Below, in pieces: positions 5,889 to 59,285 of a stretch of 64,000 nt of DNA (position 1 is its first letter; each line of letters opens with the position of its first letter). A program made the position numbers and the translations under genes. Location: the IMG/VR virus record IMGVR_UViG_3300033977_000108, positions 140,634 through 204,633 of that record. The stretch is one strand, 5' to 3'. The notes under the pieces were generated by a model. That model had not been told where the DNA came from, searched no databases, and saw only the letters and a list, made by a program, of their open reading frames with translations. Origin of the DNA: a virus.

Positions 5889-5897
5889 GTTTTCCTC

Positions 5898-6113: not shown

Positions 6114-6122
6114 TACTACTCC

Positions 6123-6338: not shown

Positions 6339-6347
6339 ACATCCTCC

Positions 6348-6375
6348 ATTATACCACAACCAACGGCTGTGTCAA
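6348..6375 (-). promoter_or_regulatory. Consensus sigma-70 type promoter
   Basis: Minus strand: TTGACA (6370-6375), 16-bp spacer, TATAAT (6348-6353). The -10 is preceded by TG and one base (TGGTATAAT), the extended -10 form. It is the best promoter I see in the window and lies in one of the few gaps between genes. Confidence 0.75.
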
Positions 6376-6392
6376 GGGCATTAGCCACCACA

Positions 6393-6662: not shown

Positions 6663-6804
6663 CTGGCGTCTCCTTCACGATTAACTGGCATCCATTGACA
6701 AGCTCCAGCTCTGTGTGGTCATTTACCCGGCAGGCAGTGACAATGTGTTCAAGAGCTATGTATACCGGCTTGCGGTCGATTAAGGTTAGTTGTTTGACAA
6801 TCAT
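6607..6804 (-). CDS. FlbD-like small protein
   Basis: 65 residues: MIVKQLTLIDRKPVYIALEH, then HTELELVNGCQLIVKETPDE. Short proteins with the outline L..NGKPVYIN..I..I, T.I.L.NG...V.E.PDEV are the FlbD family, known from flagellar operons but also common in phages, where they have no flagellar role. The fold assignment is likely and the function unknown. Its start overlaps the upstream stop by one base. Confidence 0.6.
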   Translation of the reverse strand: MIVKQLTLIDRKPVYIALEHIVTACRVNDHTELELVNGCQLIVKETPDEVYMSDQKTATKEGYIW

Positions 6805-27281: not shown

Positions 27282-28354
27282 AATACCTCCTTTGTTGTCT
27301 GAATAATCAAGTCATTGATGAGCTTGAAGTCCGGGCTCTCCGGCACCGCGAAGTCCTTGATTTCATTGATTTTATTTATCATTTCATCGGCGTAATCTAC
27401 AGCCTTTTCGTAAGACCAGGTACCTTGGCGTATGCTAAGGAGCTCTTGGGCATCCGGCCGGCGGACAAGGAGTTTGCCTTCAGTCAGGATTTCATAGCCG
27501 GTGCGGAGCAGACGGATAAGATGGGCGGCATGCCTTGTATCGTATCCGAACTTGACCTCTGATTCGTGTCTCTTTGGATCTCGGCGGGCCATCCATTCAG
27601 TGTATTGCTGCCGCTTCTTCTTGGCCTCCTTGAACTTCAGCTCGTCGAAGACCAAGCACTTTCCGTTCAGGTACTCCTTCTCTCTGAAGAACATCATTGA
27701 TCTCTCATCTGGCTCGGCGAGGCCTGTATCTTCCATCTGGCTTAGATAGGCATCCATAGGCTCTGTCTTTGGTTGCTGCCTCCAGGATAGATAGCAGTCC
27801 AAGCTTGTTGAAGGGAGTTGCATCTTTGAAGCGAACTCATTCTCCATGCGTTCCACCACATTACTGCCAAAGCGCCATTGTACCCATTCTCTACACACCT
27901 TCTCATTTATTACCAATGGCCATAGTATTTCCATCGCTCGCAGCTCTTGGCTTATCCATCTCTTGTGATTATGTATCCTATGAAGCTGGGCAGAAGCATA
28001 TCCGACATAGGTTTTGGCGCATCTCTGGGATAGGAAAGCATCCCTATGGTGTATAAGTGGCGCGAATTCAAGCCGGCACAATAGAATATCCTCGGGATCT
28101 ACAAACAACATCTCCAAGACATTCGGGTTGTTGGCGATTGCCAAATGGGCAAATTGTCGGAGCGAATAGTAGGCGCAATCTTCATCATTCTTGGTGTCAA
28201 GTATATCAAAGGCTCTCAGGCCGAGGAAGTATTCCTCCGGCGGAATGAAAATGCCACGATAGTCATAGTCGGATTCCGGTGTACTGAAACCGTAAGCCCT
28301 ACTACCTGATAGTATTTTGTAGATAAGATGCTTTTCAGCCAGTCCTTTGTCCAC
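27254..28354 (-). CDS. DNA polymerase beta-superfamily nucleotidyltransferase
   Basis: 366 residues. ILSGSRAYGFSTPESDYDYRG (G-S near residue 15, then D-x-D at about 28-30) is the nucleotidyltransferase active site. The following LGLRAFDILDTKNDEDCAYY and later KFGYDTRHAAHLIRLLRTGY are typical of the COG3541-type phage enzymes. These are thought to modify RNA or nucleotides; the exact substrate is unknown. It is longer than a minimal NTase, with an added helical C-terminus. Confidence 0.8.
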   Translation of the reverse strand: MDKGLAEKHLIYKILSGSRAYGFSTPESDYDYRGIFIPPEEYFLGLRAFDILDTKNDEDCAYYSLRQFAHLAIANNPNVLEMLFVDPEDILLCRLEFAPLIHHRDAFLSQRCAKTYVGYASAQLHRIHNHKRWISQELRAMEILWPLVINEKVCREWVQWRFGSNVVERMENEFASKMQLPSTSLDCYLSWRQQPKTEPMDAYLSQMEDTGLAEPDERSMMFFREKEYLNGKCLVFDELKFKEAKKKRQQYTEWMARRDPKRHESEVKFGYDTRHAAHLIRLLRTGYEILTEGKLLVRRPDAQELLSIRQGTWSYEKAVDYADEMINKINEIKDFAVPESPDFKLINDLIIQTTKEVLWPAMIGNL

Positions 28355-47879: not shown

Positions 47880-48281
47880 TTAGACGACTCTGTCTGCATA
47901 CTGGAATTGATTGTCATACCAGTTGAACTCATCCGTGGCCTCAAGCTTATCTTCTTTTACTTTCTTGCTCTTGGTATTATTGTCCGATAGGGTGATCCTG
48001 GCAGAGACGTCGAACTCCATGTCCTTGCCTACCTGCCGGTAGCCTTTGTTTGTCTTTTCCTTGGACAGGCACTCAAGAAATGTCATGGCGCTCTGCTTGG
48101 TCTCGCCAGAGACCTTTACTTGTTCCTGCGCGTTGTTGGACGAGAAGTTTTCAATCCTGCCCCAGCGACAAACTACGGAGTAGAGCGTTGACGGAGGTGA
48201 GAGTCTGCAAAGATTTAGCTCATAGTATTTATTGGAATTGCCGGTCGTATTATGTAAAACTCGGCGTAGTATCACTCGCAT
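47880..48281 (-). CDS. WGR-domain protein
   Basis: 133 residues. NKYYELNLCRLSPPSTLYSV, VCRWGRIENFS, EQVKVSGETKQSAMTFLECL, SKEKTNKGYRQVG: the WGR domain, in which the WGR turn and the K...KGY end contact nucleic acid. Such domains occur in PARP enzymes and polyadenylate polymerase-like proteins. Here it stands alone with a Lys-rich tail. A second WGR lies on the DNA ligase at 54053-55156. Confidence 0.82.
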   Translation of the reverse strand: MRVILRRVLHNTTGNSNKYYELNLCRLSPPSTLYSVVCRWGRIENFSSNNAQEQVKVSGETKQSAMTFLECLSKEKTNKGYRQVGKDMEFDVSARITLSDNNTKSKKVKEDKLEATDEFNWYDNQFQYADRVV

Positions 48282-48648
48282 CGAATTCCCTTGAGCCCGT
48301 TTTCCATTCGGGATAGTTAGGCAACGCGTCCCTCACTGCCTTCAGTATCTGAAGGTAGAGTAGGCCTTCCTGTTGGTGGGATGGCAGCTCCTCAATAAAG
48401 CGGCTATCCAGGGTATAGGTAGTGATGGTTTTGCCCGGCTCTGCTATAGACAAGCTGAGGGCTGGTACAACAGCTAAGGATACTCTTAGCTTCCACGGCT
48501 TATCGCCTATGTCGTGCCCCATGTGGCACATCTTGCCCCAGGCAATGAGCTTTGGCAAGAGCGGTTCAAGTGCTTCAAAGACAGCGTCTTGTATAGCACT
48601 TGCCAGTTCTACCGGCACTGGTTCGTCTTTCTTGGGTTTCTTCGTCAT
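48250..48648 (-). CDS. Unknown protein, 132 aa
   Basis: Lys/Pro start, helix VELASAIQDAVFEALEPLLP, strands LRVSLAVVPALSLSIAEPGK and a helical end. AAGGAGGT precedes the ATG at 48648. The promoter at 48666 lies just upstream. Family unknown. Confidence 0.65.
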   Translation of the reverse strand: MTKKPKKDEPVPVELASAIQDAVFEALEPLLPKLIAWGKMCHMGHDIGDKPWKLRVSLAVVPALSLSIAEPGKTITTYTLDSRFIEELPSHQQEGLLYLQILKAVRDALPNYPEWKTGSREFDASDTTPSFT

Positions 48649-48665
48649 TGGAGACCTCCTTGTGT

Positions 48666-48674
48666 ATTATAGCA
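48666..48674 (-). promoter_or_regulatory. Extended -10 promoter element
   Basis: Minus-strand TGCTATAAT. The TATAAT contains the TAA stop of the gene ending at 48667 (coding GTG CTA TAA). Transcription would begin near 48659, just at the ribosome site of the next gene. No -35 box is visible. Confidence 0.5.
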
Positions 48675-49557
48675 CGCGCTCCTTTTCTCGCGGGATTAGT
48701 ATTTCCTGCAAGCCCAGGCTGTCAATAGCTTTCATTACCTCCAGAGGGATGTTCTTCAACTCCTTATCTTTCACCAGTCGTTTGTGGCTGTGCATACTAA
48801 CGCTATCCGTGCGCTTAATATATCGCAGCGACTTTTCTGGCAGCTCGTTCTTTGCGTCTCTGTATTCCTTATCGCCGCGGAGGGTCAGACGGCCACCTTC
48901 CTTGCTGGCCTCAAACATAGCAGTAGCAAACTGGCTCTTGTAAGTCAGGTGCCCTTGTTCCTTGGCTTTTATGCTGGCGTATATGTCTTCCAGCCGGTTC
49001 CTCTCTCCGAAATCCGGCCCCAGATGCGGATTGGGGCATAGGAAGAGGTTGATTGGCAACTGACCATATGTCCTCTGGAAGGATGTGTCTGCCCAGCAAG
49101 AGTTATTGAAGCCGGCGCCAACTATAGGCCTATCTTCGTTTTCTGCCATTTTGATGACATCCTGCTCTATGTATTTCATAGCCGCTTGTATGATAGCCGG
49201 GAATCCGATTAGGTTAGGACAATAGGATTTCCCCTTCCCGATTATCAGCCTAAACTCATTCGGGTCGCCGTCAGACATCCAAAAGATGCCGGACATCAGG
49301 CTTCGCAGCCAGTTTCTAATCTGCCCAAAGGTCATCCCAGCCGGGTGATAGACGGGTATTGCTCCCTCCGGCAGGAATTCCTCTACTTTCCCGCGTACTA
49401 TCTCTGATAAGCAGATGTAGATTGTGCCCCCGTACAGGGTACAGGCAAGGTGTAGTCTATCATTCCGTCTTGTTAGCTCTGCTGGTATAATCTCTCCGAA
49501 TTTATTCCAGAATCCGCCGTGCAGTATGACCCGTGGGATATCCAGAGGTCTTATCAT
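48667..49557 (-). CDS. Unknown protein, 296 aa
   Basis: Mixed alpha/beta: LHLACTLYGGTIYICLSEIV, a SMF-like helix, YCPNLIGFPAIIQAAMKYIE, and a Lys/Arg-rich end. Histidine and Cys are scattered. Family unknown. It is the first gene after the SSB terminator, so it needs its own promoter, which I cannot place. Confidence 0.65.
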   Translation of the reverse strand: MIRPLDIPRVILHGGFWNKFGEIIPAELTRRNDRLHLACTLYGGTIYICLSEIVRGKVEEFLPEGAIPVYHPAGMTFGQIRNWLRSLMSGIFWMSDGDPNEFRLIIGKGKSYCPNLIGFPAIIQAAMKYIEQDVIKMAENEDRPIVGAGFNNSCWADTSFQRTYGQLPINLFLCPNPHLGPDFGERNRLEDIYASIKAKEQGHLTYKSQFATAMFEASKEGGRLTLRGDKEYRDAKNELPEKSLRYIKRTDSVSMHSHKRLVKDKELKNIPLEVMKAIDSLGLQEILIPREKERVL

Positions 49558-49589
49558 GAGATAAGCACCGCCTTGGTCGGCCTACAGAC

Positions 49590-49622
49590 AAAAATAGCCG
49601 GGTACTTGTTAGGTACCCGGCT
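49590..49622 (-). terminator. Rho-independent terminator downstream of the SSB gene
   Basis: Minus strand: AGCCGGGTAC pairs perfectly with GTACCCGGCT over a 7-nt loop, followed by ATTTTT. It lies 34 nt after the SSB stop codon and ahead of the gene at 48667-49557. It is the clearest terminator in the window. Confidence 0.85.
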
Positions 49623-49655
49623 AGAATGACTAGTACCGCTTCTGGCGGATGTCGT

Positions 49656-50078
49656 CTAGAAAGGAAGGTCCTCTGCAGCAATCTCAGGCGCAGCATCAGG
49701 AGGCGGTGCCTCTTGGGCCGGCTGACCAGGTTTACTTGGAGATAGATTTTTGATAATCGAGACGATTATCTGCTTTCCTTTGTGCTTGTTACCTTCCCGG
49801 TCAACATAGTTGTTGTCTTGCAGCGTACCCTCAAGGTATAACAGGTCACCCTTGTGTACATACTTGCTGATGTATTCGGCCGTCTTCTTGAAGGCGACCA
49901 GATCGTTGTACTGTGGCACCGACTCATAGACAGGCTTGCCGGCGCTGTCTACCTTGTCGGTCTTCGTACTGCGATTCGTGGCAACGCCAAGCGTGACAAG
50001 TGCGCCATTGCTCTTCAGTTCCGGGTCCCTGGTGGCCCGGCAAATAGCTGTGACTTTTACAAAGGTTGTGTCAGACAT
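49656..50078 (-). CDS. ssb: Single-stranded DNA-binding protein
   Basis: 140 residues. OB-fold segments: FVKVTAICRATRDPELKSNG, LVTLGVATNRS, YNDLVAFKKTAEYISKYVHK, GDLLYLEGTLQDNNYVDREG. Then a Gln/Pro-rich tail ending EDLPF, the acidic tip with terminal Pro-Phe that recruits partner proteins in bacterial SSB. It protects single-stranded DNA during replication. A terminator follows. Confidence 0.92.
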   Translation of the reverse strand: MSDTTFVKVTAICRATRDPELKSNGALVTLGVATNRSTKTDKVDSAGKPVYESVPQYNDLVAFKKTAEYISKYVHKGDLLYLEGTLQDNNYVDREGNKHKGKQIIVSIIKNLSPSKPGQPAQEAPPPDAAPEIAAEDLPF

Positions 50079-50086
50079 AATCCTCC

Positions 50087-51196
50087 TTATTGTCTGTCCG
50101 CCCTGAAAGTATCAGTGCCTTGCGGCTTGACCATTTTCCATAGCAAATCATGGTATGGCTTGCCATCCAGCATCCTGAATAGGAGCGGAGCTAAGTCCTT
50201 GTACTGGTTGAAGTAAGCAGCGGCAAACTTCCGCTGCTCGTGTGGCGTGGGGAAGCCCAGCATCACACTGAGACAGTCCGTGCGAAACTTATTATAAACT
50301 AGCAGGGCGCGGGCTTGTAAATCCGCTACATCCCCTGTCAGCTTATCCGACCACTTTCTTGTCCAGGCCGTAAAGTCTTCTGGTGTATTCTCCGTCAGGC
50401 GGCGCAGGTCATCGGCGGCGTTCGCGCTCTTCATTAGTATCTCCCAGATTGCCTTGGGATTGACGCCTGTCAGCAGCTTGTGAAGGCGCATATAGTCGGC
50501 GAATTTGACCTTGACCCTATATGGAGGCCGGTCGGGAAACTTCCAGGCCAGGACATAGCCCTCTTCATTCTTGTTATTTTCGGCCAGGCATTGGGCAATA
50601 GTCTTACCAGATTTGCCAACCATCTCCAAATGGTGGTAGTCTGCCACCTGCTTTACTTCATCGTATGTGCCTTCGATGCCCGTCGGGGTGTCCACTATGG
50701 ATAATAGCATTAGCCCCTCTTTGGGATATTTCACAACTATCTGATTCCAGGCTGCTATTATTTCAAATAGGGACGTTGCTCCAAGCCACTCAATGTGCCC
50801 AATGTGGTCTTCGTACCATTTGGTAGCCCACTGGGCTTGTTCGGAGGCAAAGCTACCACGAGTGGCTATACCTTCTTCTCCCTTATAAGACCAATAGATA
50901 CCAAGGCTTCCATCTAGCTTCTCGGTAACTTCTGGTACACCAGGAGGAACATAGTCTTGCCCATAGTTCCAGAACTTCCTGAAGGGGCGGGCTATGACAT
51001 CGCCGTCCTTGGTTATTATTAGCCCGCGGCAAGTATTCATAGCCTCGTTCCATTGGCTGGGCGCCTCATGCTGGGCAGCGTGCGTGTAGTTGTAGATTAG
51101 CAGAGGCAGCGTTGGGTGGGCTGTACATGATATCATGCCTTCCTGTACGCTGAACTCCAGGCTCTTGACATCAAGTATTTGATTGATGCTTGTCAT
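50087..51196 (-). CDS. RNA ligase, T4 RnlA-like
   Basis: About 369 residues from the ATG at 51196. TCRGLIITKDGDVIARPFRK-FWNYGQ and VTEKLDGSLGIYW (Lys nucleotidylation motif I, K-L-D-G-S), then SLFEIIAAWNQIVVKYP, EEGYVLAWKF (motif IV) and YRVKVKF (motif V). It joins RNA ends with ATP and in T4 repairs host-cut tRNA. It lies a few genes from a Thg1-family enzyme, which can rebuild tRNA ends, so they may form a tRNA-repair pair. Confidence 0.9.
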   Translation of the reverse strand: MTSINQILDVKSLEFSVQEGMISCTAHPTLPLLIYNYTHAAQHEAPSQWNEAMNTCRGLIITKDGDVIARPFRKFWNYGQDYVPPGVPEVTEKLDGSLGIYWSYKGEEGIATRGSFASEQAQWATKWYEDHIGHIEWLGATSLFEIIAAWNQIVVKYPKEGLMLLSIVDTPTGIEGTYDEVKQVADYHHLEMVGKSGKTIAQCLAENNKNEEGYVLAWKFPDRPPYRVKVKFADYMRLHKLLTGVNPKAIWEILMKSANAADDLRRLTENTPEDFTAWTRKWSDKLTGDVADLQARALLVYNKFRTDCLSVMLGFPTPHEQRKFAAAYFNQYKDLAPLLFRMLDGKPYHDLLWKMVKPQGTDTFRADRQ

Positions 51197-51371
51197 GTTC
51201 TTTGTCCTTGAAGGTAGGGCAGTCGCACTTCGAGCACTTGCCGGAGTGGGTAAAGAGAAAGATTTGCTTTGTCTCGTCGTATGGCCGGTCGTGATACATG
51301 TACAAGTGCCCACAAGTACAGAAGACTTCCTCGTCTGTCCTCTTCCTTCTAATCGCCCCTGTGGTGCTCAT
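51171..51371 (-). CDS. Small zinc protein of the CTCGH...CSKCDCPTF type
   Basis: 66 residues: EVFCTCGHLYMYHDR, then THSGKCSKCDCPTF. The layout C-x-C-G-H...H-x-x-x-x-C-x-x-C-x-C-x-x-F is a widespread phage zinc knuckle. Its end overlaps the ligase start by 26 nt. Function unknown. Confidence 0.72.
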   Translation of the reverse strand: MSTTGAIRRKRTDEEVFCTCGHLYMYHDRPYDETKQIFLFTHSGKCSKCDCPTFKDKEHDKHQSNT

Positions 51372-51383
51372 TGGCCGGTCAAC

Positions 51384-51584
51384 TCACCGATTATTACTAG
51401 TCACCCTCTCTGAATACCCTATCCTCTCCAGATACGCCATCAAAGCCTTCAAAACCTCTGGCTCAAGGTAGATGGTGTTCCTTGGGTCGTCTGGATAGCC
51501 ATTCCCCGTGGTCAATACCAACTGGCCGCAGTCGTTGAGGTTAACGTAAACGCTATCGCCGAGGTATTCTTTCAGGTCGTTCAT
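51384..51584 (-). CDS. Small phage protein of the YLGDSVYV...NTIYLEPEVL family
   Basis: 66 residues: NDLKEYLGDSVYVNLNDCGQ, LVLTTGNGYPDDP, RNTIYLEPEVLKALMAYLER. It is a commonly seen phage protein of unknown role. GGAGG 4 nt before the ATG at 51584 sets the start, even though the frame is open to an ATG at 51647 that also has AGGAGG. Confidence 0.7.
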   Translation of the reverse strand: MNDLKEYLGDSVYVNLNDCGQLVLTTGNGYPDDPRNTIYLEPEVLKALMAYLERIGYSERVTSNNR

Positions 51585-51636
51585 TCTTCCTCCGCATTGC
51601 CTCATAGTATGGGCCTCGGAGTACCTATAGATTGTA

Positions 51637-51858
51637 TTATCTCCCATCTGTTCCTCCTTTCTCTTGCTCGTAAGAATCGCAAGAGACAAGCCATACTGGA
51701 TCAAAGTTGAATGGCCAGCAGAACCACCCACTCCCAATGCCGTGTTCGTGTCCTACAACTTTGGCTGACCAGCAGGCACAGGATGAGTGGGCGTCTCCTG
51801 CGATAGGTCGCCTATGGGTACAACTATAGCAGAGCGGACAACTTGATTTGCTTTCCAT
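51637..51858 (-). CDS. Small Cys-rich phage protein (HxxxxHGIGSGWF type)
   Basis: 73 residues: CPLCYSCTHRRPIAGDAHSS-CA, HEHGIGSGWFCWPFNFDPVW. The CYxCxHRxxIxGDxHSxC...GWFxWPFNFDPVWLxSCD run is one I know from many phages. Probable metal-binding site; function unknown. Confidence 0.75.
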   Translation of the reverse strand: MESKSSCPLCYSCTHRRPIAGDAHSSCACWSAKVVGHEHGIGSGWFCWPFNFDPVWLVSCDSYEQEKGGTDGR

Positions 51859-51861
51859 GGA

Positions 51862-52062
51862 TCACCCGATAATGGCTATCTCAACGGCGTCTGCCGACTC
51901 TCCCATCTCTGGGTATGTTTCCCAATAGTGCCCGCAGCTGAATTCTGCATCCATTATCTTTATTTCGCCCTTGAAATCGTAGGGAAGACCCTCATTCATC
52001 CTGGCAACGATTGTTCCAGGAGGCAGGGTTCGTAATAGGACTATTAGTTCTTCGGCTGTCAT
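51862..52062 (-). CDS. Unknown protein, 66 aa
   Basis: TAEELIVLLRTLPPGTIVAR, MNEGLPYDFKGEIKIMDAEF, acidic end. ATG at 52062 has GGAGG 6 nt upstream. It overlaps the Thg1 gene stop by 4 nt. Family unknown. Confidence 0.65.
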   Translation of the reverse strand: MTAEELIVLLRTLPPGTIVARMNEGLPYDFKGEIKIMDAEFSCGHYWETYPEMGESADAVEIAIIG

Positions 52063-52844
52063 TGCTCCTCCTCTGCATTGCTCCATGGCCCTCTGGGCCA
52101 GGGCAGCTGGGCTGGAATCATCTCGGTCAGATTGCTACGCTCCTCCACGAATGGGAAAGCGGGTCGAACCAGCCATTCGCCTTTGTATGTACAAAGCCTG
52201 CCGAATCTATGTTTTACGGGAATGTTCTCCCACTGCACACCTACTGTTGCAAGGTCCTCCAGCCTCTGCTTGTTGTTCCTCTTGTCCAGCTGGCGTGGAG
52301 AAAAGTGGACCTCTGCCATCATGTTGATGGCATTACGCACCCAGTCCCTCTGGCGCCAGATAAAGTAGTTCTCCACTTCTATCCGATGTGGGATAACAAA
52401 GGCGCGCGCATCGAATGTAGCGCGTGGCTGGAATTTATAGCTCTCCAGCCCTGGCGCTGGGTTTTCGTCGGCTAAGTAGTTGATATGGTTGTTGAAAGCT
52501 GATGTGAAGTGCGAGGCAGCTACCGACACGATTTTCTGCAGGTTGCCATCAAACCAAGCCTGGGTGCCAGGCTGCTCGAAATCTGTCAGTAGCACCGATA
52601 CTTCGTCGCTCTGCAAGTATGCAAACTTGCAGCCTTGTATCTCCTTACATAAGCAGCAGGTAGCGTAAGCAAAAGCACTCTCCAAATCCTCATCAAATGG
52701 CCTGCTGGCCTTTCTGGTATAGAGGTGGAAGGCCTTGCCGTCTACTCGTATGATTGTATAGGTACTGCGGGGAAGATAGATACGATATCTATCCTCATAG
52801 TAGCCCTTCATACGGGCAGCAAGAGCGTTCTTGGCTTCGCTCAT
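52059..52844 (-). CDS. Thg1-family 3'-5' nucleotidyltransferase
   Basis: 261 residues. TYTIIRVDGKAFHLYTRKA (first metal Asp region), KFAYLQSDEVSVLLTDF (second Asp), TFDARAFVIPHRIEVENYFI, WRQRDWVRNAINMM. The R-V-D-G-x-x-F, S-D-E-h-S and R-x-x-D-x-x-x-N-x-x segments match Thg1/TLP. Such enzymes add nucleotides to tRNA 5' ends in the reverse direction; the TLP members repair truncated tRNAs. With the RNA ligase nearby, tRNA repair is the likely role. Confidence 0.9.
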   Translation of the reverse strand: MSEAKNALAARMKGYYEDRYRIYLPRSTYTIIRVDGKAFHLYTRKASRPFDEDLESAFAYATCCLCKEIQGCKFAYLQSDEVSVLLTDFEQPGTQAWFDGNLQKIVSVAASHFTSAFNNHINYLADENPAPGLESYKFQPRATFDARAFVIPHRIEVENYFIWRQRDWVRNAINMMAEVHFSPRQLDKRNNKQRLEDLATVGVQWENIPVKHRFGRLCTYKGEWLVRPAFPFVEERSNLTEMIPAQLPWPRGPWSNAEEEQ

Positions 52845-53041
52845 GCCTTCTTCCCATACTGCTTGATCAGGGCCCTCTGCTTCTCTATATTGCCCTCGAT
52901 CTTATCGAGTACCAAAATGGCACACACCACACAGTCCTGCAAGGTGGCACCTGGTCTGGCTGCGCTAGTATCTATAGCTGCATTCAACGCGGCTTTGTAT
53001 AGCTGGTCTTCGTCCACAGGTGTGGAATCATTCTCGCTCAT
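52841..53041 (-). CDS. Small acidic helical protein, 66 aa
   Basis: ENDSTPVDEDQLYKAALNAA, then AILVLDKIEGNIEKQRALIK. Helical. Overlaps the Thg1 start by 4 nt. Family unknown. Confidence 0.6.
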   Translation of the reverse strand: MSENDSTPVDEDQLYKAALNAAIDTSAARPGATLQDCVVCAILVLDKIEGNIEKQRALIKQYGKKA

Positions 53042-53096
53042 TGAATATCTTTCTCAGGAATGCCTTTTCCTTGGAAATCTTCTCGTGGGCTCCCGG

Positions 53097-53465
53097 TCAA
53101 TCCTCGATCTCAAACAGGGTGTCGATGATGCCTCCGAGTGAGAAGTTCTTCCCTGTTCTCAGGCTTTCCACATCAAGCACGTCACCTTCAAGAGCTTCCA
53201 GAAAGGCTGTGTTCCTCTTGATTCGATTCACGGCTTCGCCCCACTGGTAGCGGATACACGGCCGGTATGCACACTCTATACGTGGCCTCTTGTCGAACTC
53301 TTCCCATGTGTTTATAGTGCGCATTTGTTTCTGGAGGGCGGCCAGATACTTCACGTAGTTGGCCTTGTAGGTCTTGAATAGCTTGTCATAGTCTGCCTTC
53401 TCCTTCACCAGCTTGTCAAGTGCACGCTGCAGCCGGGCTCTCAATACAGATTTCTTCACTTCCAT
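53097..53465 (-). CDS. Coiled-coil protein, 122 aa
   Basis: Starts MEVKKSVLRARLQRALDKLV, then heptads (KLFKTYKANYVKYLAALQKQ), then CAYRPCIRYQWGEAVNRIKR. ATG at 53465 with AGGAAGGAG upstream. Family unknown. Confidence 0.62.
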   Translation of the reverse strand: MEVKKSVLRARLQRALDKLVKEKADYDKLFKTYKANYVKYLAALQKQMRTINTWEEFDKRPRIECAYRPCIRYQWGEAVNRIKRNTAFLEALEGDVLDVESLRTGKNFSLGGIIDTLFEIED

Positions 53466-53467
53466 AG

Positions 53468-53641
53468 TCAATCTCCTTCCTCGCGGAAGATCTTCCTCAG
53501 CAGGGTCTCCTCCCTGCTCAGCTTCTCACGTATCTTCCGGCGCTTATCACCGATGACACGAGTCCCGGGAGGAGCGCCGTGCATTCTAGCTCGCCGCTTG
53601 ACTTCCTTGATTGGGTTCAGTACTTTGCGTTTCTTTGACAT
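53468..53641 (-). CDS. 57-aa very basic protein
   Basis: Starts MSKKRKVLNPIKEVKRRARM, with HGAPPGTRV and a charged helix IREKLSREETLLRKIFREEG. The helix part recurs in a shortened form at 53036-53100. It overlaps the ParB-like gene by 56 nt. DNA- or RNA-binding by charge only. Confidence 0.5.
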   Translation of the reverse strand: MSKKRKVLNPIKEVKRRARMHGAPPGTRVIGDKRRKIREKLSREETLLRKIFREEGD

Positions 53642-53879
53642 GGCAGGCTATCTCCTTTCTTCCTACTTGTATAGCCCGGGCCAGCCTATAGTTGCCATCG
53701 TGGATGATGTACTGGCCATCCCGAAGCTCTACAAACAGAGGCCTGTAATCCCGCCTTGGATGCCGCTGGATGTAGTCTGCCATGCCAGCCATTTCTATTG
53801 CTCTTGGGGCTGGCAAGTCGGATATTCTGATCATCTGGATCGGACACTTCTCAAACTCATTGTTGACCAAGGTGTTCAC
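53586..53879 (-). CDS. ParB/sulfiredoxin-like protein
   Basis: 97 residues. QMIRISDLPAPRAIEMAG, RRDYRPLFVELRDGQYIIHD, GNYRLARAIQVGRKEIAC. The I-x-I-x-D-L...P...I...DG...h-x-D-G-x-x-R-h-x-A pattern is the ParB-like CTPase/nuclease fold, with D-G-N-Y-R in place of D-G-E-R-R. Short for a ParB, so probably a small regulator. Role unknown. Confidence 0.72.
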   Translation of the reverse strand: MNTLVNNEFEKCPIQMIRISDLPAPRAIEMAGMADYIQRHPRRDYRPLFVELRDGQYIIHDGNYRLARAIQVGRKEIACHVKETQSTEPNQGSQAAS

Positions 53880-54066
53880 GATGTTCCTCCAAGAAGAAAT
53901 GCTCAGCGTACTCGCCGGTGATCTTGCGCAACTGGGAAAGCTGTAGGGCTATCTCCCACAAGGCCCTTACCTTGGCGGCTTCCGCGGTCCTGGACATAGG
54001 CATTGTGCTGTTAAAGGCGTCCATAAGTGAATCCTGCTCGCTTCTTATCTGGTCAGGCTCCATCAT
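53857..54066 (-). CDS. Helical unknown protein, 69 aa
   Basis: EPDQIRSEQDSLMDAFNSTM, then EAAKVRALWEIALQLSQLRK. Acidic, helical. Overlaps the ligase by 14 nt and the ParB-like gene by 23 nt. Family unknown. Confidence 0.58.
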   Translation of the reverse strand: MMEPDQIRSEQDSLMDAFNSTMPMSRTAEAAKVRALWEIALQLSQLRKITGEYAEHFFLEEHREHLGQQ

Positions 54067-55156
54067 CGTCCTCCAGAGTGCCAGCCTTGAACTTTAGGCT
54101 GCTATAGTAATCGGCGTGGTCAACGTCATCCCTTGGCCCCTTATAGATAGCCTGGAACAGGGAGCCATTGGGATAGGCGTACAAGTATTTTACATCAATT
54201 AACTGTTGCTTGTAGGGCATCTCCCAGTTAGGTGGGATGGTTACCTTGCCTACCTCCCTGAACATCCCGCCTTTGTCCAGCAGGATACCGAGAAGAACAC
54301 TTCGCTTGTCCTTGGTAGTGTCTAACACCTGGCAAGTGGCTTCGCCGTAAAACTTGAACTTGCGCATTGTCCCGCCACTGTTCGGCTTGCCTGCCTGGTA
54401 GGTTGCCTCTTTCTTCTTGAATACCAGTCCCTCTCCACGGCGCGCCTTTATCTCATTGAAAAGACTGCGCTTCTCTGCTGTTGTGTATGCTGTGTAAACT
54501 TCTTTTAGGTGTTCATCAAACCGTACGGCCAGCTCGGCGAGCATAGATAGGCGAAATACGGTTGACAGGCCAGTAAGATTATGTGTCCCAGCATATATGA
54601 GGTCAAATACATTCAGCACTGTGCCAATGGCTTCGCCGTCTAAGATAACCGGCACAGGGAGGGCTGCTATCGCGTCGCGTATTTCGGATGGGAAGCCCAC
54701 CACTATGCCTTTCTTATTGCTGGCAGTGATTTGGCCGCCCACGGAGCTAATCATCAGGTGCCTGCCATCAAACTTCTCCTGGGCGAGCCAGTTATCGTTT
54801 TTTATGTAGGTTTTAACTTCTTCCTCTTCAAGCATGGTCGGCTGCCAAGGTATAAGCCCGGAGGATTCCTTCTCGCCCGCCGCCACAACAGCGGCTTGGC
54901 TTGCCCCTTCACCAGGCTTATAACCCTTGGCTACTTTGGAGCCGACCAGCTTATTGTATACCTTCTTGGCTTGCTCGTATGTGGCGTTGGCTATCTTTAC
55001 GCCTGGTTGTAGGGTGCTTCCCCGTCTGCCGAACTCGAAGCTCACCCTCCAGCGCAGATTATCCAGGCCGTTTCCTTTATCTTCCAGCAAGTGTGCCAGG
55101 TAGACTTTATCACTGCTACCCTGTTTGAAGTAGAGACTTATTGATTCTTCCTTCAT
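54053..55156 (-). CDS. ATP-dependent DNA ligase with N-terminal WGR domain
   Basis: 367 residues. Residues about 1-90 form a WGR domain (SISLYFKQGSSDKVYLAHLL, WRVSFEFGRRGSTLQP, KLVGSKVAKGYKPG). Then the ligase: LAQEKFDGRHLMISS (K-x-D-G-R), VPVILDGEAIGTVLNVFDL, ARRGEGLVFKKKEATY (motif IV), MRKFKFYGEATCQV (motif V). There is no OB-domain motif VI end of the large ligases. It seals nicks with ATP, and the WGR part should guide it to a DNA or RNA structure. WGR here reads FGRRG, keeping the GR. The fusion is unusual. Confidence 0.85.
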   Translation of the reverse strand: MKEESISLYFKQGSSDKVYLAHLLEDKGNGLDNLRWRVSFEFGRRGSTLQPGVKIANATYEQAKKVYNKLVGSKVAKGYKPGEGASQAAVVAAGEKESSGLIPWQPTMLEEEEVKTYIKNDNWLAQEKFDGRHLMISSVGGQITASNKKGIVVGFPSEIRDAIAALPVPVILDGEAIGTVLNVFDLIYAGTHNLTGLSTVFRLSMLAELAVRFDEHLKEVYTAYTTAEKRSLFNEIKARRGEGLVFKKKEATYQAGKPNSGGTMRKFKFYGEATCQVLDTTKDKRSVLLGILLDKGGMFREVGKVTIPPNWEMPYKQQLIDVKYLYAYPNGSLFQAIYKGPRDDVDHADYYSSLKFKAGTLEDDDGA

Positions 55157-55185
55157 TCATTGCCTCCTTAAGCACCAGCTACCTC

Positions 55186-55416
55186 CTATTCCAAGTAGCT
55201 CCCCGTCATCCCTGGCGGGGGTCCCCAGACTAGCGCACTATCAACTTCGGCGCCTGTTACCCTATCAAATTCCCACGCACTGCAGATAATCAGGGCGTCG
55301 GTTATCTTGGTCACTGTCAGGCGGTGCGGTATCTCGCCCCCAAGCCATCGTATGACAGTATCCCCTACCTGGGCTTCTCTGAATGAGACCACCTTTTCAT
55401 TCTTTTCTTTACCCAA
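55186..55416 (-). CDS. Small phage protein of the GEIPHRLTVTKI...GAEVD family
   Basis: 76 residues: VSFREAQVGDTVIRWLGGEI, PHRLTVTKITDALIICSAWE, FDRVTGAEVDSALVWGPPPG. A beta barrel fold known from many phages and bacteria, function unknown. Confidence 0.75.
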   Translation of the reverse strand: MGKEKNEKVVSFREAQVGDTVIRWLGGEIPHRLTVTKITDALIICSAWEFDRVTGAEVDSALVWGPPPGMTGSYLE

Positions 55417-55432
55417 TGAAAAAGTCTCCCAG

Positions 55433-55654
55433 TTAATTTAGGCGTTCCCGGCCTCGCGTCCGAGATGCGTCTCGCAATTGTACGACACGACATTTCTTGC
55501 CCTCAGCTGTAACCGTAGGTGCGTCGCTAGCCTTCAAGGATAGCTTATTGTGCCATGTCGTAGCCAGCAAGTACTCATCACAGTATGGACAGTGTATGTC
55601 AAACATTACAAATGGTATAGCCTTTTCCGTTTCATTCTTCTTTTTCTTCTTCAT
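55433..55654 (-). CDS. Small basic zinc-knuckle protein
   Basis: Lys-rich start (KKKKKNETEKAIP), then DIHCPYCDEYLLATTWH with a CxxC and His. Later LKASDAPTVTAEGKKCRVVQ. One zinc site likely; role unknown. It overlaps the next gene by 23 nt. Confidence 0.6.
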   Translation of the reverse strand: MKKKKKNETEKAIPFVMFDIHCPYCDEYLLATTWHNKLSLKASDAPTVTAEGKKCRVVQLRDASRTRGRERLN

Positions 55655-55901
55655 CTGGTCTCCTTTCCAATGTACTACTGTGGAGTTGGCTATCTATACG
55701 CCTGATTGCAGGGTGCTTCCAGCCCATAGCGGCATCCATGTTCAGTCGCCAGGTGTGGAAGGCATAGACATAATGCCAGAAGTCCATTATTGCCTGCCGT
55801 TCTATAGGGCGTTTCATCGCCAGCAGCGTGGAGAACATACCACGCTCGGCTACCAGGGATTGCTGTAATGCTATTAGATACAGCTGTGTTGCTGTTTTCA
55901 T
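55632..55901 (-). CDS. Helical unknown protein, 89 aa
   Basis: LYLIALQQSLVAERGMFSTL, IERQAIMDFWHYVYAFHTWR. Acidic end. ATG at 55901 overlaps the synthetase stop (ATGA) with GGGGG upstream. Family unknown. Confidence 0.6.
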   Translation of the reverse strand: MKTATQLYLIALQQSLVAERGMFSTLLAMKRPIERQAIMDFWHYVYAFHTWRLNMDAAMGWKHPAIRRIDSQLHSSTLERRPDEEEKEE

Positions 55902-57178
55902 GCGCCCCCTTTGTTTGGTATCCATGGCGGTACAAACTCTTCTGCCTTTATACCTGTCATTCTGGAAATGAATGACAAGTAGTGCTCTCTAAAGGTAGTT
56001 GCGCTGATATCAAAGGTTGCCCACGCAACAGGCTCAGCGCGCATCATAGCATCGGTTATAGCCCTCCCTACCAGCGGAAGAGGAATGTCTGCCTCCTCAT
56101 AGCTCAGGCAGATTTTGGCGGTGCCGATTAGACTTTCTATTCTATCCAGGTGGGTTACCACTAGACGGTTTATCTTCCCTGCCGCGCGTAGGGCATAGTC
56201 CAGCAGCAGCATGTCCAAATGCCCAACCCTAAACCTGCCCTGCCACTCATTGGTTGTATTATGGGCGTCTTTCAGCATTGTGGCCATGCCCCAGGACTCC
56301 GTTGGGAATGGTCCTGGGCCATGCCTGGTAAGATAGCCCCGAATAATGCCAATATAGTCGGCAGAATCGGCATAGGGGCCGAGCAGCTTGACAGCATTGG
56401 CTACTGTAGTATCAGACCAGCTGCAATAGGGATGGAATCCGTATTTCTCGTCCAGCAGTACGCCTTGGGCACCTTCAAATACAAACGTATCGTCGTGCCT
56501 GTAGCCAGTACAGAGTTTCTCCTTAAACCAGCTCTCGTCTACAATGTTCAGCGTTTTGCCCATCTCAGTATAGACAGCCAGGTCTCTCTTCAAAATGTCG
56601 GCAGCGGTCCACTGCCAATAGGAGTAAGGGCCACTGTCGAATTCGAGCATTTGGTTTCTCTTTACTTCGCTGATTTCGTTTAGCTTGTCTTTCATTACGG
56701 CTGGATGCTGCAAGTCGCCAGCATAGAAAACAGTCCTGCCAAAAAGGAGGTCTGACTTTACTTCGCCGATACCCATACCACAGCTCCCGTGTCTTCCTAC
56801 TTTGCGGCTGTTCTCTCTGGTCCTATTCAGCATCTTATGAAGGGTCGTCGTAATAGGGGCGTTCTTGTCTATATACAGGCGCTTATAGGCATCGGTTACT
56901 CCCAGCTCTTGTAAATGGGCCTCCTCGTTCCGCATAGAGAGAGGGTCTATAACCATGAACTGGGAGAGGTATGTCCCCACGCCTGGGACCAGTGTGCCAC
57001 TGCCAAATTGACTGAAGGTATGGTGCTTACCATCAGCCGTAATCACATTATGCCCTGCTTGGCAGCCTCCGTTGTATCGTATGACGAGGGGTACCTTGCG
57101 CGTGCGGCACAGATAGTCTACATACGCGCCCTTCCCTTCGTCCCCAAATCCTAAGCCTACGACACAAATTGGGTTCAT
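55898..57178 (-). CDS. Adenylosuccinate synthetase homologue (PurA/PurZ-like)
   Basis: 426 residues. GLGFGDEGKGAYVDYLC (P-loop and catalytic Asp, near residues 8-24), IRYNGGCQAGHNVI (N-x-G-x-x-A-G-H), KVGRHGSCGMGIGE, FVFEGAQGVLLDEKYGFHPY and NRLVVTHLDRIE. These are the active-site segments of the PurA fold. The Asp of GDEGKG is kept; in the classical PurZ enzymes that make aminoadenine from dGMP this residue differs. The length is nearer to PurA (about 430) than to short PurZ. So it could make AMP, or be a PurZ0-like enzyme. Neighbours VWA and small proteins do not decide this. Confidence 0.85.
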   Translation of the reverse strand: MNPICVVGLGFGDEGKGAYVDYLCRTRKVPLVIRYNGGCQAGHNVITADGKHHTFSQFGSGTLVPGVGTYLSQFMVIDPLSMRNEEAHLQELGVTDAYKRLYIDKNAPITTTLHKMLNRTRENSRKVGRHGSCGMGIGEVKSDLLFGRTVFYAGDLQHPAVMKDKLNEISEVKRNQMLEFDSGPYSYWQWTAADILKRDLAVYTEMGKTLNIVDESWFKEKLCTGYRHDDTFVFEGAQGVLLDEKYGFHPYCSWSDTTVANAVKLLGPYADSADYIGIIRGYLTRHGPGPFPTESWGMATMLKDAHNTTNEWQGRFRVGHLDMLLLDYALRAAGKINRLVVTHLDRIESLIGTAKICLSYEEADIPLPLVGRAITDAMMRAEPVAWATFDISATTFREHYLSFISRMTGIKAEEFVPPWIPNKGGA

Positions 57179-57193
57179 AGCATTTGATTTGTC

Positions 57194-58156
57194 TTATATC
57201 ACCCTGTCCAGATTCTCGCCTGCGTTAAGAGCCGTGGAATCAATAAAAGTAGAAAGGGAATCTGCCAACATGTTAGTATCAGCATCTTCTACACCAAGTT
57301 CCACCAGTGTTCCTTTTATCTGCGCTTTATTTATCTTGCCCTCCCTGGCGCCTACAACAACGCCTACCATGGAGCAGATGTCTTTGCCGTCGCGCAGGGT
57401 GATAACATGGTCGGCGCCAAATAGTTCTATGCCGCGCTCACGCGATTGTTGTTCGCCGCCGTCAAGAGGCCAGAGCTGATAGACGTCCCATAGCTTCTGG
57501 GCTTTCTTGACAAGGGTTTCTATCTTCTCACTCTTCTCTGTTTGGTCGCCGAACACATCTACAAGCTGGGTGCCCACTGTCCGGTCCGGGAACATCTCGT
57601 CTGCGTACAGGAAGAGCAGACCTTTCTTGTGGCGCTTCTCAAAGCAATCCAAGACAGTCTTGTAGGCGGCGCAATAGAGAGGAAGGTCGTAGGATTCCCT
57701 GTTGTTGCCTCCACCTTTGCCGACCAGTTTGATGTCTCGGAGCCACTCGTCAATGCGATCGTCGGACTCAAAGTCCGATGCTTGGAAAGCCCGGTTGCCT
57801 ACCACCAAATAGTCATCGTTAGCCCAGATGGCAACCTGCGGGTTAGGAATGTGCTTGGCAAGCAAATCCATCAGCTTTGGCAGGGCTTTTTGAGCCACTC
57901 GGGCATTGTTTATGTTGCTGCCCGTGACATCCAAGCAGATGACAATAGCCAGAGATTCAGGATGGTCCTTGCTATCCCTGCTCTCCAGCTTCTTGAATGG
58001 CTTCTTATTGATGCGGCTCGGCAAAAGAGCCTCGTGTATGTCTCGCAAATCGCCGAAGTTGAAGTCTTTATCATGCTGAAAGTCATCAAAGCCTTGGGTA
58101 GCTCGCAGATTTGATTTATAATAAACTACATCACTACTCCATTTTCCGTATCCCAT
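57194..58156 (-). CDS. von Willebrand factor A-like protein
   Basis: 320 residues. LAIVICLDVTGSNINNARVA is a MIDAS-like D-x-T-x-S start, and KHIPNPQVAIWANDDYLVV, GGGNNRESYDLPLYCAAYKT (T in the G-x-x-N-x-x-x-S region), KKGLLFLYADEMF follow as in VWA folds. No membrane segment. Such proteins often pair with AAA+ ATPases; the only AAA+ here is far away. GGAGG precedes the ATG. Confidence 0.78.
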   Translation of the reverse strand: MGYGKWSSDVVYYKSNLRATQGFDDFQHDKDFNFGDLRDIHEALLPSRINKKPFKKLESRDSKDHPESLAIVICLDVTGSNINNARVAQKALPKLMDLLAKHIPNPQVAIWANDDYLVVGNRAFQASDFESDDRIDEWLRDIKLVGKGGGNNRESYDLPLYCAAYKTVLDCFEKRHKKGLLFLYADEMFPDRTVGTQLVDVFGDQTEKSEKIETLVKKAQKLWDVYQLWPLDGGEQQSRERGIELFGADHVITLRDGKDICSMVGVVVGAREGKINKAQIKGTLVELGVEDADTNMLADSLSTFIDSTALNAGENLDRVI

Positions 58157-58203: not shown

Positions 58204-58593
58204 TTAGTGTCTGTGGTCATGGTGTTCGTCCTCGCCAGCTCCATTGAGGTCCTCTTTCTCGTGGTCTCCCTCAAGTAGAATGTGTGAGGATACAACATAC
58301 ATCATGGATTCTTGTTGCTGGTAGAATCTCCTCGTGAAGGACAGGACAACCTTGGCGGTGTCCTCGTCGGCTATGAATCTCACTGGTATTACCTGCTCCT
58401 TCTGTACTGGCCGGTGTCCCCCTGGCACCCAGCTGCCCCTGGCCGGCCGCATTACGGTCAAGCCCTTGGAGAGGCCTGCTACTTCCCTGTCCCAGGCTTT
58501 ATGGTAGCTTAGGGGCACTTTCTTCCCGTTGTTGTAGTAGGACGGGACAAGTATTTCCCATAGGATTAGGCCGCCGGAAACTTTCATTATCAT
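58204..58593 (-). CDS. Unknown protein, 129 aa, His-rich end
   Basis: KVSGGLILWEILVPSYYNNG, WDREVAGLSKGLTVMRPARG, SWVPGGHRPVQKEQVIPVRF. WExxVP...WDxxVxxxxxGLTxxxxxxG-x-W resembles a recurrent phage family of unknown function. The end HHDHRH may bind metal. Confidence 0.65.
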   Translation of the reverse strand: MIMKVSGGLILWEILVPSYYNNGKKVPLSYHKAWDREVAGLSKGLTVMRPARGSWVPGGHRPVQKEQVIPVRFIADEDTAKVVLSFTRRFYQQQESMMYVVSSHILLEGDHEKEDLNGAGEDEHHDHRH

Positions 58594-59183
58594 CCCAGCA
58601 CCTCGTCAATAAGCCCGAATTCCTTGGCTTCCTTGGGACCCAGCCAGCGTTCCCGGCGCCGAAAGAATTCAAGCACCTCTCCCTTTGACTTTCCGGTGCG
58701 GCTGGCCAATATGTCTATCACCAGTTCCTGTAATGTCTTCATCTCGGCCGTGGTATCCTCAAGGTCGGATTCCTTTTGCTGCTCCATTATCGTCCATTTG
58801 CTCAATTCATGCAGGTGTAGGCGAGAATGCTTGCACGCCTGCCGCCAAGTACAGCCCTGCAACACAATCATGGCCGCGGCGGAGGCAGCAAAGCCTTCTA
58901 CTATGCCCTTGACTTCGGTGAGGTTAGCTACCTCTCGGATTAGGTCGTACATGGCAAGACTATGATGGACGCCGCCGCCCGGACTGGAAATATGTATCTG
59001 GATTGGTGCTATCCCCAGGCCATGCACCAGGTTAAGGCTGCGGCTTATTTCTAATAGAACACATTCGTCTATGTCGTCATATAGTCTGATATGACCATTG
59101 GTAATGTCATTGGCAGCAGCCAGGTCATAGATGTCCCGATAGATCAGGTCCTTAGCCGCCTTACGCAGGTCTTCAATGTTCAT
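58590..59183 (-). CDS. clpP: ClpP-like serine protease
   Basis: 197 residues from ATG at 59183 (AAGGAG upstream). IQIHISSPGGGVHHSLAMYD, VEGFAASAAAMIVLQGCTWR (Ser of the G-F-A-A-S-A motif), KHSRLHLHELSKW (His), and the catalytic Asp expected in the following helix region. These are the ClpP active site. It forms proteolytic rings, usually with an AAA+ unfoldase of the host. Phage versions act in virion or protein turnover. Full-length for a ClpP, about 200. Confidence 0.85.
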   Translation of the reverse strand: MNIEDLRKAAKDLIYRDIYDLAAANDITNGHIRLYDDIDECVLLEISRSLNLVHGLGIAPIQIHISSPGGGVHHSLAMYDLIREVANLTEVKGIVEGFAASAAAMIVLQGCTWRQACKHSRLHLHELSKWTIMEQQKESDLEDTTAEMKTLQELVIDILASRTGKSKGEVLEFFRRRERWLGPKEAKEFGLIDEVLG

Positions 59184-59197
59184 CATTCTCCTTAGAT

Positions 59198-59274
59198 TGG
59201 TCGGGGCGCCCAGACTTGAACCGGGGACCTCTTGCGCCCAAGGCAAGCGCGCTACCAGGCTGCGCCACGCCCCG
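59198..59274 (-). tRNA. tRNA-Pro, anticodon TGG
   Basis: Acceptor stem CGGGGCG/CGCCCCG perfect, D arm with GGTAGC, anticodon stem CTTGC/GCAAG with loop CTTGGGC (anticodon TGG at 34-36), T loop TTCAAGT. CCA is encoded after A73. It has its own promoter candidate just upstream. Confidence 0.95.
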
Positions 59275-59285
59275 TCCAGCATTCT

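Follow-up and report, generated by a model that had tools for sequence, protein, structure and literature searches.

Close together on the minus strand of a 204.6-kb phage record (IMGVR_UViG_3300033977_000108), a Thg1 homolog and an RNA ligase of the T4 Rnl1 type raise the question of what Thg1 contributes to RNA repair in this virus and, specifically, whether it fills the role of a missing polynucleotide kinase, as proposed in the initial annotation. We addressed this question in the 64,000-nt stretch that holds both genes (hereafter, the window; record positions 140,634 to 204,633), in the whole record, and across Thg1 loci of other viruses and of cells.

Table 1. Coordinates of the features within the window
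Feature	Position	Strand	Remarks
tRNA-like gene Phe(AAA)	4597-4671	minus	A3.A70 mismatch, CCA not fully encoded
RlaP, RNA-ligase-associated Pol-beta nucleotidyltransferase	27254-28354	minus	366 aa
Rnl1-type (T4 RnlA-like) RNA ligase	50087-51196	minus	369 aa from internal ATG
Four short, partly overlapping ORFs between ligase and Thg1	51171-52086	minus	from the ORF list
Short ORF 1	51171-51371	minus	
Short ORF 2	51384-51737	minus	
Short ORF 3	51637-51858	minus	
Short ORF 4	51862-52086	minus	
Thg1-like protein (TLP), predicted bacterial type	52059-52844	minus	ATG start, 261 aa
tRNA-Pro(UGG)	59198-59274	minus	CCA encoded, acceptor fully paired

The Thg1 homolog and its neighboring ligase

ORFs and family matches agree with the arrangement first described, in which the Thg1 homolog and the RNA ligase are separated by four short genes, a gap of 863 bases (Table 1). 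The longest ORF of the ligase begins at a GTG (51313). The protein matches Pfam RNA_lig_T4_1 (PF09511; 9.4e-10, 39.1 bits, exceeding the cutoff of 28.3), PHROG family phrog_562 (1.2e-52), and, by sequence, the solved T4 Rnl1 structure (3.7e-10). It stays below the cutoff of the NCBIfam equivalog TIGR02308 (44.1 bits versus 242) and is therefore considered a relative, not an equivalog. The stretches KLDG, EGYV, and KVK are found in its sequence; we take these to be the ligase motifs, with KLDG as the nucleotidyl transfer site. For the three short ORFs that were scanned (all except 51637-51858), no Pfam family was detected at 0.1, and their PHROG matches (best, 3.6e-6) are solely to families of unknown function.

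The Thg1 ORF matches Pfam Thg1 (1e-25, profile search) and phrog_4717, tRNA-His guanylyltransferase (1.6e-72). A sequence search of the PDB placed the TLP of Bacillus thuringiensis (BtTLP; 4kgk) first, at 2.4e-46 compared to 6.3e-8 for the runner-up, and a Foldseek search with the predicted structure (pLDDT 89.9) returned BtTLP chains as the top eight matches, led by 4kgm (TM scores of 0.82/0.94). Among 47 homologs, the metal-binding carboxylates D80 and E81 are invariant, and D35 is conserved in at least 90%. The HINNLYN stretch is a feature of eukaryal Thg1 that TLPs lack; at its position in the alignment of PDB sequence matches, the phage protein has VRNAINM and BtTLP has SKNSISM. The phage protein thus resembles BtTLP (PDB 4KGK/4KGM) in sequence, fold, acidic residues, and the lack of HINNLYN, and it differs in that its last ~20 residues are modeled at low confidence and in that the activation lysine K43 of BtTLP is not kept, being replaced by Arg48 in the sequence alignment. 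We do not take Arg48 as excluding TLP membership because the K43A substitution in BtTLP was reported to slow activation with ATP and not with GTP (PMC3701042). Judged by sequence and predicted fold, the phage Thg1 protein is a bacterial-type TLP, nearest to BtTLP, and not a eukaryal Thg1.

RNA repair genes across the phage record

The absence of a polynucleotide kinase, on which the initial proposal depended, holds for the 64,000-nt window, where no kinase of the T4 polynucleotide kinase-phosphatase (Pnkp) kind was detected and the sole AAA_33 match is an AAA+-type ATPase. It does not hold for the record, which encodes a T4-like Pnkp outside the window, at record positions 5746 to 6780, towards the other end from Thg1. 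Both the N-terminal P-loop kinase domain (AAA_33, 1.8e-13) and the C-terminal HAD phosphatase domain (HAD_PNKP, 1.2e-18) exceed their cutoffs, the motifs of both domains (GLPGSGKT and DIDGT) are present, and 4xrp and 1ltq are PDB matches. At a distance of 660 bases lies a second RNA ligase, the pair spanning record positions 3904 to 6780. This ligase exceeds the cutoffs of Pfam RNA_ligase (1.2e-19) and PHA02142 (3.2e-14) and falls under that of TIGR02306 RNA_lig_DRB0094 (6.9e-32, but 110.6 bits against a cutoff of 151), and we therefore named it DRB0094-like. Looking for a kinase elsewhere in the genome, as had been suggested, thus uncovered a kinase-ligase pair, the very finding that the initial annotation had itself named as contrary to its proposal.

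RlaP is encoded within the window, ~24 kb from Thg1 in this phage (Pfam PF10127, 8.8e-25, 88.3 bits versus a cutoff of 23; profile search of the genome, 5.4e-25; phrog_388, 2.1e-66); it had been overlooked in the initial annotation. Neither a CCA-adding enzyme nor RtcB was found in the whole record at an E value of 1. Our searches establish the presence and the family of each of these genes, their catalytic motifs, and the fold and nearest relatives of the TLP. The repair genes are scattered in this phage, and what remains of the suggested tRNA repair system is an RNA repair set (two RNA ligases, Pnkp, RlaP, and TLP) without Thg1 as a kinase substitute.

The distance of 863 bases and the lack of a kinase among the ORFs scanned between the two genes would fit a Thg1 that replaces a missing polynucleotide kinase and is paired with the neighboring ligase. 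However, besides the Pnkp adjoining the second RNA ligase in the same record, the chemistry of the family argues against this. The substrate of characterized Thg1 family members is described as a phosphorylated 5' end (PMC2904730), and the tRNA used in the BtTLP assay obtained its 5'-phosphate from T4 kinase (PMC3701042). With a 5'-phosphate as its starting point, Thg1 consumes the product of a kinase, and by analogy, the phage TLP would therefore act downstream of a kinase, not in its place. Nor is the proximity of Thg1 and Rnl1 conserved among viruses, since only 2 of the 18 records with both genes have them within 5 kb. Kinase replacement is thus extremely improbable.

Co-occurrence and neighborhoods of viral Thg1

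The 2 records within 5 kb compare with 1.25 expected at random, and conserved Thg1-Rnl1 linkage was rejected as close to chance. Two records (G033 and G044) have identical Thg1-Rnl1 distances and probably represent one phage. Co-occurrence was compared between Thg1-positive records (the 50 longest of 80 kept, 88 having encoded a relative; some are near-duplicates) and controls (50 of at least 120 tRNA-array stretches, 46 of them without Thg1, from records shorter than the Thg1-positive ones). Rnl1 occurred in 18/50 Thg1-positive and 11/46 Thg1-negative records (P = 0.27), or in 14/26 and 7/18 of those of at least 100 kb (P = 0.37), and RlaP occurred in 8/50 versus 5/30, the latter being 30 of the 46 Thg1-negative records (P = 1.0). 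A kinase was present in 32/50 versus 15/46 records (P = 0.002), a difference that in records of at least 100 kb amounted to 22/26 versus 11/18 (P = 0.09). Record-level co-occurrence of Thg1 with other repair genes is thus not clear.

These comparisons also bear on a scenario in which the 5'-adenylylated RNA made by the TLP is passed to the Rnl1-type ligase, so that the pair could seal 5'-phosphate ends while bypassing the ATP step of the ligase. BtTLP builds up 5'-adenylylated and guanylylated intermediates in vitro (PMC6471195), and Anantharaman et al. 2010 (PMC2904730) put forward ligation through a 5' App. However, the ligase retains its own KLDG stretch, and both proximity and co-occurrence are at background, which makes such a hand-over quite unlikely.

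At the level of gene neighborhoods, tRNA end-building and repair genes do cluster around Thg1 across viral loci. In 56 distinct loci, four families (CCA-adding enzyme; HAD_SAK_2, a HAD "Swiss army knife"; RlaP; and PHA02142-type RNA ligase), selected after clustering and searched with profiles made from members within 10 kb of Thg1, were found 21 times within 4 kb of Thg1 (426 kb) versus 7 times at greater distances (553 kb; binomial P = 0.0009). They were found once in 446 kb of Thg1-negative loci. Thg1-positive records were also sampled in 40 further stretches (785.5 kb), some of which overlap Thg1 loci, and these contained 12 occurrences. When a cluster without a Pfam match, presumably PTH2, was added, the counts were 23 near and 11 far (P = 0.005). 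For five more families, namely ATP-dependent ligase, PRPP synthetase, NAMPT, YqeY, and a family that we take to be GIY-YIG, the counts showed no concentration near Thg1 (14 near versus 26 far; P = 0.34). In one locus (L024), the genes for the CCA-adding enzyme, RlaP, and Thg1 are consecutive, with 4-base overlaps.

This clustering argues against a substrate other than tRNA, with the TLP acting on another RNA 5' end of phage or host, since tRNA end and RNA repair enzymes are among the genes concentrated near viral Thg1. In favor of such a substrate, BtTLP is able to work with an external template, and non-tRNA substrates have been raised for the family (PMC6471195); moreover, 17/50 Thg1-positive records, many possibly fragments, show no tRNA gene. 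We regard a non-tRNA substrate as rather unlikely.

The two tRNA genes noted in the window were both found, but they lie ~47 kb (Phe) and ~6 kb (Pro) from Thg1 and are therefore not part of the locus. In the whole record, ARAGORN found three tRNAs, two of which have a mismatch among the first three pairs of the acceptor stem (A1.C72 and A3.A70), as would suit a TLP that corrects encoded 5' mismatches of the phage's own tRNAs, similar to 5' tRNA editing in Dictyostelium. Across loci, however, there was no clear excess of 5' acceptor mismatches in non-CAT tRNAs (25/467 in Thg1-positive versus 17/423 in Thg1-negative loci, counting identical sequences once each and with loci from one record overlapping; Fisher P = 0.43), and the records without any tRNA gene likewise speak against 5' editing, which is highly unlikely. 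A further 70 loci of untested Thg1 status (22/632) were left out of this comparison.

The canonical role of Thg1, G-1 addition to tRNA-His, is what the family carries as its name in both Pfam and PHROGs. Yet the phage protein is predicted to belong to the TLP branch, the tRNA genes detected by ARAGORN in this record do not include tRNA-His, and 12/17 tRNA-His genes of Thg1-positive loci already encode the G at -1, so that there is no need for its addition, versus 9/12 in Thg1-negative loci. G-1 addition is thus very unlikely. Two other tRNA features were set aside. Eight-pair acceptor stems numbered 39 in Thg1-positive loci versus 7; 21 of the 39 came from one phage (G006, loci L219 to L221), and ARAGORN seems to extend the stem by a pair that includes the -1 base, in genes most of which have no encoded CCA. 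The difference in encoded CCA (107/495 in Thg1-positive versus 361/453 in Thg1-negative loci) is unusable because the control contigs were chosen by a pattern containing CCA.

A proposed model for tRNA repair by the phage

Considering these data, we propose, as a probable though by no means certain reading, that this virus is equipped with a T4-like RNA repair arsenal countering tRNA damage by host defenses, in which the TLP rebuilds 5' ends in a templated manner. Its members, Pnkp beside the DRB0094-like ligase, the Rnl1-type ligase, RlaP, and TLP, are dispersed over the genome. In this model, tRNAs would be cut or nibbled by host defenses during infection, and Pnkp would generate 5'-phosphate and 3'-OH ends. 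Lost nucleotides would be restored by RlaP and TLP, and the RNA ligases would reseal the ends. The TLP step would consist of templated 3'-to-5' addition on tRNAs without 5' acceptor-stem nucleotides, with the 3' strand as the template and the 5'-phosphate as the starting point. Several points count against this model: the repair genes lie scattered, Thg1 shows no clear record-level co-occurrence with them, no CCA-adding enzyme was found in the record, 17/50 Thg1-positive records show no tRNA gene, Arg48 stands in place of the activation lysine, and no host nuclease known to us takes nucleotides off the 5' side of the acceptor stem. The chemistry of the phage TLP is modeled on that of the characterized B. 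thuringiensis enzyme, which rebuilds 5'-truncated tRNAs in vitro (PMC3701042), and its substrate would probably be acceptor stems lacking 5' nucleotides. We further infer that tRNA would be the substrate in infection and that the enzymes may act together in counter-defense.

In T4, Pnkp and Rnl1 mend tRNA damaged by PrrC, and both enzyme types are also present in this phage. Unlike in T4, its Pnkp adjoins the DRB0094-like ligase instead of Rnl1, and RlaP and TLP are extra. Rnl1, Rnl2, PNK-HAD, RlaP, and a sporadic Thg1 were described as RNA repair in jumbo phages by Iyer et al. 2021 (PMC7824862); that paper's section on RNA repair does not include Thg1 neighborhoods, and the CCA-adding enzyme-RlaP-Thg1 run comes from the present analysis. 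Bacterial neighborhoods of Thg1, PNK, and RNA ligase have been proposed to function in RNA repair (Anantharaman et al. 2010, PMC2904730). Among 20 cellular Thg1 loci, we found a kinase-like gene (AAA_33) adjacent in 2 and an RNA ligase (PHA02142 and RNA_ligase domains) adjacent in 2 and 3.6 kb away in a third; in these bacterial neighborhoods the kinase is linked to Thg1, whereas in this phage it is not adjacent. Thg1 also occurs in culturable phages, for example the Bacillus phages BSP38 and vB_BmeM-Goe8. Phage Thg1 as RNA repair is already published, and the repair set is a richer example of known viral counter-defense, not a new system. Among open-license papers, we found no report of a laboratory test of a phage TLP, for which the consecutive CCA-adding enzyme, RlaP, and Thg1 genes of L024 would be the best candidates.

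The neighborhoods also open the way for a more tentative and, at present, doubtful hypothesis, that large phages may possess a module for rebuilding acceptor stems (TLP, CCA-adding enzyme, RlaP, and HAD or ligase enzymes) directed against a host nuclease. In this scenario, the module would exist because some host defense nuclease strips tRNA 5' nucleotides; TLP would rebuild the 5' strand, the CCA-adding enzyme the 3' end, and RlaP the nucleotides lost at cut 3' ends, with HAD or ligase enzymes around them. The phage studied here would have the TLP, RlaP, and kinase-ligase parts, leaving CCA addition to the host, and from the gene set one would expect an anti-phage RNase of a class still to be described.

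To our knowledge, the TLP family has no known biological role in bacteria. If the phage TLP repairs tRNA 5' ends in infection, this would provide such a role and would hint that some host nucleases shorten tRNAs from the 5' end.

RNA repair genes of the record and identity of the Thg1 protein

The window covers the final 64 kb of a virus record 204,633 bases long. It was initially annotated with a Thg1 gene, an RNA ligase gene and four short ORFs between them, with Thg1 as a possible stand-in for a kinase not seen there. Both genes are real, and the four ORFs occupy the 863 bases that separate them. The kinase substitution does not stand, as a conventional kinase-ligase pair lies outside the window in the same record. 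Its kinase-phosphatase matches solved structures of Pnkp1 and T4 Pnkp (polynucleotide kinase-phosphatases) and keeps GLPGSGKT and DIDGT. Together with RlaP, the RNA-ligase-associated Pol-beta nucleotidyltransferase, these genes form the repair arsenal; directly observed are its genes, with their families and motifs. Neither RtcB nor a CCA-adding enzyme was found in the whole record, weak absences because its completeness is not given.

Features of the record, by window or record positions
Feature	Position	Strand	Evidence
Thg1	window 52059-52844	minus	261 aa; family match far above chance
Rnl1-type (T4 RnlA-type) RNA ligase	window 50087-51196	minus	369 aa; family match far above chance
RlaP	window 27254-28354		PF10127 8.8e-25
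Kinase-phosphatase (P-loop protein)	record 5746-6780		found by whole-record search; kinase domain AAA_33 1.8e-13; PNKP-type HAD phosphatase domain 1.2e-18; PHROG polynucleotide kinase 1.7e-52
Second RNA ligase	record 3904-5085		adjoins kinase-phosphatase; Pfam RNA_ligase 1.2e-19; PHA02142 OB domain; TIGR02306 DRB0094 type 6.9e-32, under its cut-off
ATP-dependent ligase	window 54053-55156	minus	DNA_ligase_A_M 7.5e-10; weak N-terminal WGR match under cut-off
Adenylosuccinate synthetase relative	window 55898-57178	minus	PHROG "2-aminooxy adenylosuccinate synthetase" 4.1e-76; NCBIfam PurA 3.4e-54 and PurZ 8.4e-14, both under cut-off; aspartate of GDEGK kept
phrog_2971 protein	window 57194-58156	minus	5.4e-29; no Pfam match; adjoins PurA-like gene
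Head maturation protease, longest ORF	window 58590-59282		start overlapped by tRNA-Pro
tRNA-Pro	window 59198-59274	minus
Phe(AAA) tRNA-like gene	window 4597-4671	minus	A3.A70 mismatch; CCA incomplete
CAT tRNA	record 124521-124597		A1.C72 mismatch
Fourth tRNA-like match	record 126394-126466 (L008:12394-12466)		Rfam 45 bits; odd T-loop; absent from ARAGORN output

The best solved relative of the window Thg1 is the Thg1-like protein (TLP) of Bacillus thuringiensis, BtTLP (2.4e-46; next, 6.3e-8), which is also the top structural match (TM 0.82/0.94) of the model predicted from 47 aligned sequences (pLDDT 89.9, pTM 0.86). The metal-binding acids are conserved, and VRNAINM stands at the place of eukaryal Thg1 HINNLYN. 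Since Arg48 replaces the ATP-activation lysine of BtTLP, nucleotide preference may differ between the two proteins. The chemistry of the repair enzymes is borrowed from characterised relatives. In the BtTLP study (PMC3701042), the enzyme repaired 5'-truncated tRNAs, and its assays used ends phosphorylated by T4 kinase; by analogy, TLP chemistry would therefore need the product of a kinase and would be no substitute for one. No laboratory test of a phage TLP was found in the open-licence literature searched.

tRNA genes and specific roles of Thg1

The tRNA genes invoked as context are present, two in the window and both above the Rfam score (the scan covered the window and the loci L002 and L008), but one is separated from Thg1 by ~47 kb and the other by ~6 kb, which places both outside any Thg1 locus. 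If Thg1 served tRNA-His, the tRNA-His genes of Thg1-positive phages should be without G at -1, yet 12 of 17 already encode it (9/12 in controls). Editing of encoded 5' mismatches, which predicts their excess, is likewise not supported: no clear excess was seen (25/467 vs 17/423, p 0.43), and loci of untested status gave 22/632. Acceptor mismatches at the 5' side occur in two of the three ARAGORN tRNAs of this record.

The AAA anticodon is unusual for bacterial Phe. The true start of the head maturation protease probably lies downstream of that of its longest ORF, because PHROG matches begin near residue 50. In a 306-kb virus (G006; L219, L220, L221), ARAGORN paired the base at -1 with the discriminator in 21 tRNA genes, mostly without encoded CCA.

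Thg1 and its neighbors in viruses and cells

Megablast of window positions 48000-58000 against 50,697 phage records gave no close match, whereas tblastn with the window Thg1 matched 127 of these records. A tblastn search of IMG/VR gave 88 candidate stretches, of which 80 were kept and the 50 longest taken for co-occurrence. Rnl1 is present in 18 of these 50, not clearly more often than in Thg1-negative tRNA-array controls (11/46, p 0.27). Only 2 of these 18 have the two genes 5 kb or less apart, against an expectation of 1.25. RlaP is equally common (8/50 vs 5/30). Kinase-like matches are commoner in Thg1-positive records (32/50 vs 15/46, p 0.002), less clearly so at 100 kb or more (22/26 vs 11/18, p 0.09), and by their listed spans just 7 of these 32 matches extend over the greater part of the kinase-phosphatase profile. 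From the proximity and co-occurrence of Thg1 and Rnl1, the window pair is better interpreted as part of a scattered gene set than as a two-gene system.

ORFs within 10 kb of Thg1 were clustered across 57 distinct groups, the window's own among them, and families were named by Pfam from one member per cluster. Recurring neighbors include HAD_SAK_2, CCA-adding enzymes, RlaP and PHA02142-type RNA ligases. Profile scoring of 56 viral loci placed 21 members of these four families within 4 kb of Thg1 versus 7 farther (p 0.0009, descriptive because the families were chosen after clustering), and Thg1-negative control loci gave 1. L024:640-3808 encodes a CCA-adding enzyme, RlaP and Thg1 in direct succession, each gene overlapping the next by 4 bases, a run of three nucleotidyltransferases for RNA ends. 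A single 694-aa viral protein (L034:13917-16001, minus strand) fuses CCA-adding and HAD_SAK_1 domains and weakly matches the fungal tRNA ligase phosphodiesterase domain. Six groups, that of the window among them, have relatives of the phrog_2971 protein no more than 10 kb from Thg1; another ATP-dependent ligase cluster, to which the window ligase at 54053-55156 does not belong, recurs inside this distance in 10 viral groups.

A kinase-like gene adjoins Thg1 in 2 of 20 cellular loci and a PHA02142-type ligase in 2 of 20, in agreement with Anantharaman et al. 2010 (PMC2904730). Six of the 20 (L265, L266, L267, L268, L269, L272), titled Acidobacteria, Acidobacteriia or Bryobacter, carry a gene of one cluster divergent to Thg1 and abutting or overlapping its start; Pfam confirmed PIN_3 in both members scanned. 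This arrangement may reflect shared descent, or the pairing of an RNase with a repair enzyme. In an Armatimonadetes MAG, a YhcG-type PDDEXK nuclease gene (L260:6773-7825, plus strand) is directly downstream of Thg1.

A proposed route of tRNA repair

Most likely, the genes of the record act together in tRNA repair. During infection, host defences would cut tRNAs, Pnkp would heal the ends, RlaP would restore nucleotides at 3' ends and TLP at 5' ends, and both RNA ligases would reseal them. We infer both tRNA as the substrate and the counter-defence role. Iyer et al. 2021 (PMC7824862) assign Rnl1, Rnl2, PNK-HAD, RlaP and sporadic Thg1 to RNA repair in jumbo phages. Earlier, Anantharaman et al. 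2010 (PMC2904730) suggested that the Thg1 of phage 201phi2-1 might counter host defence. Phage RNA repair sets with Thg1 are thus already described, and the present phage adds another example.
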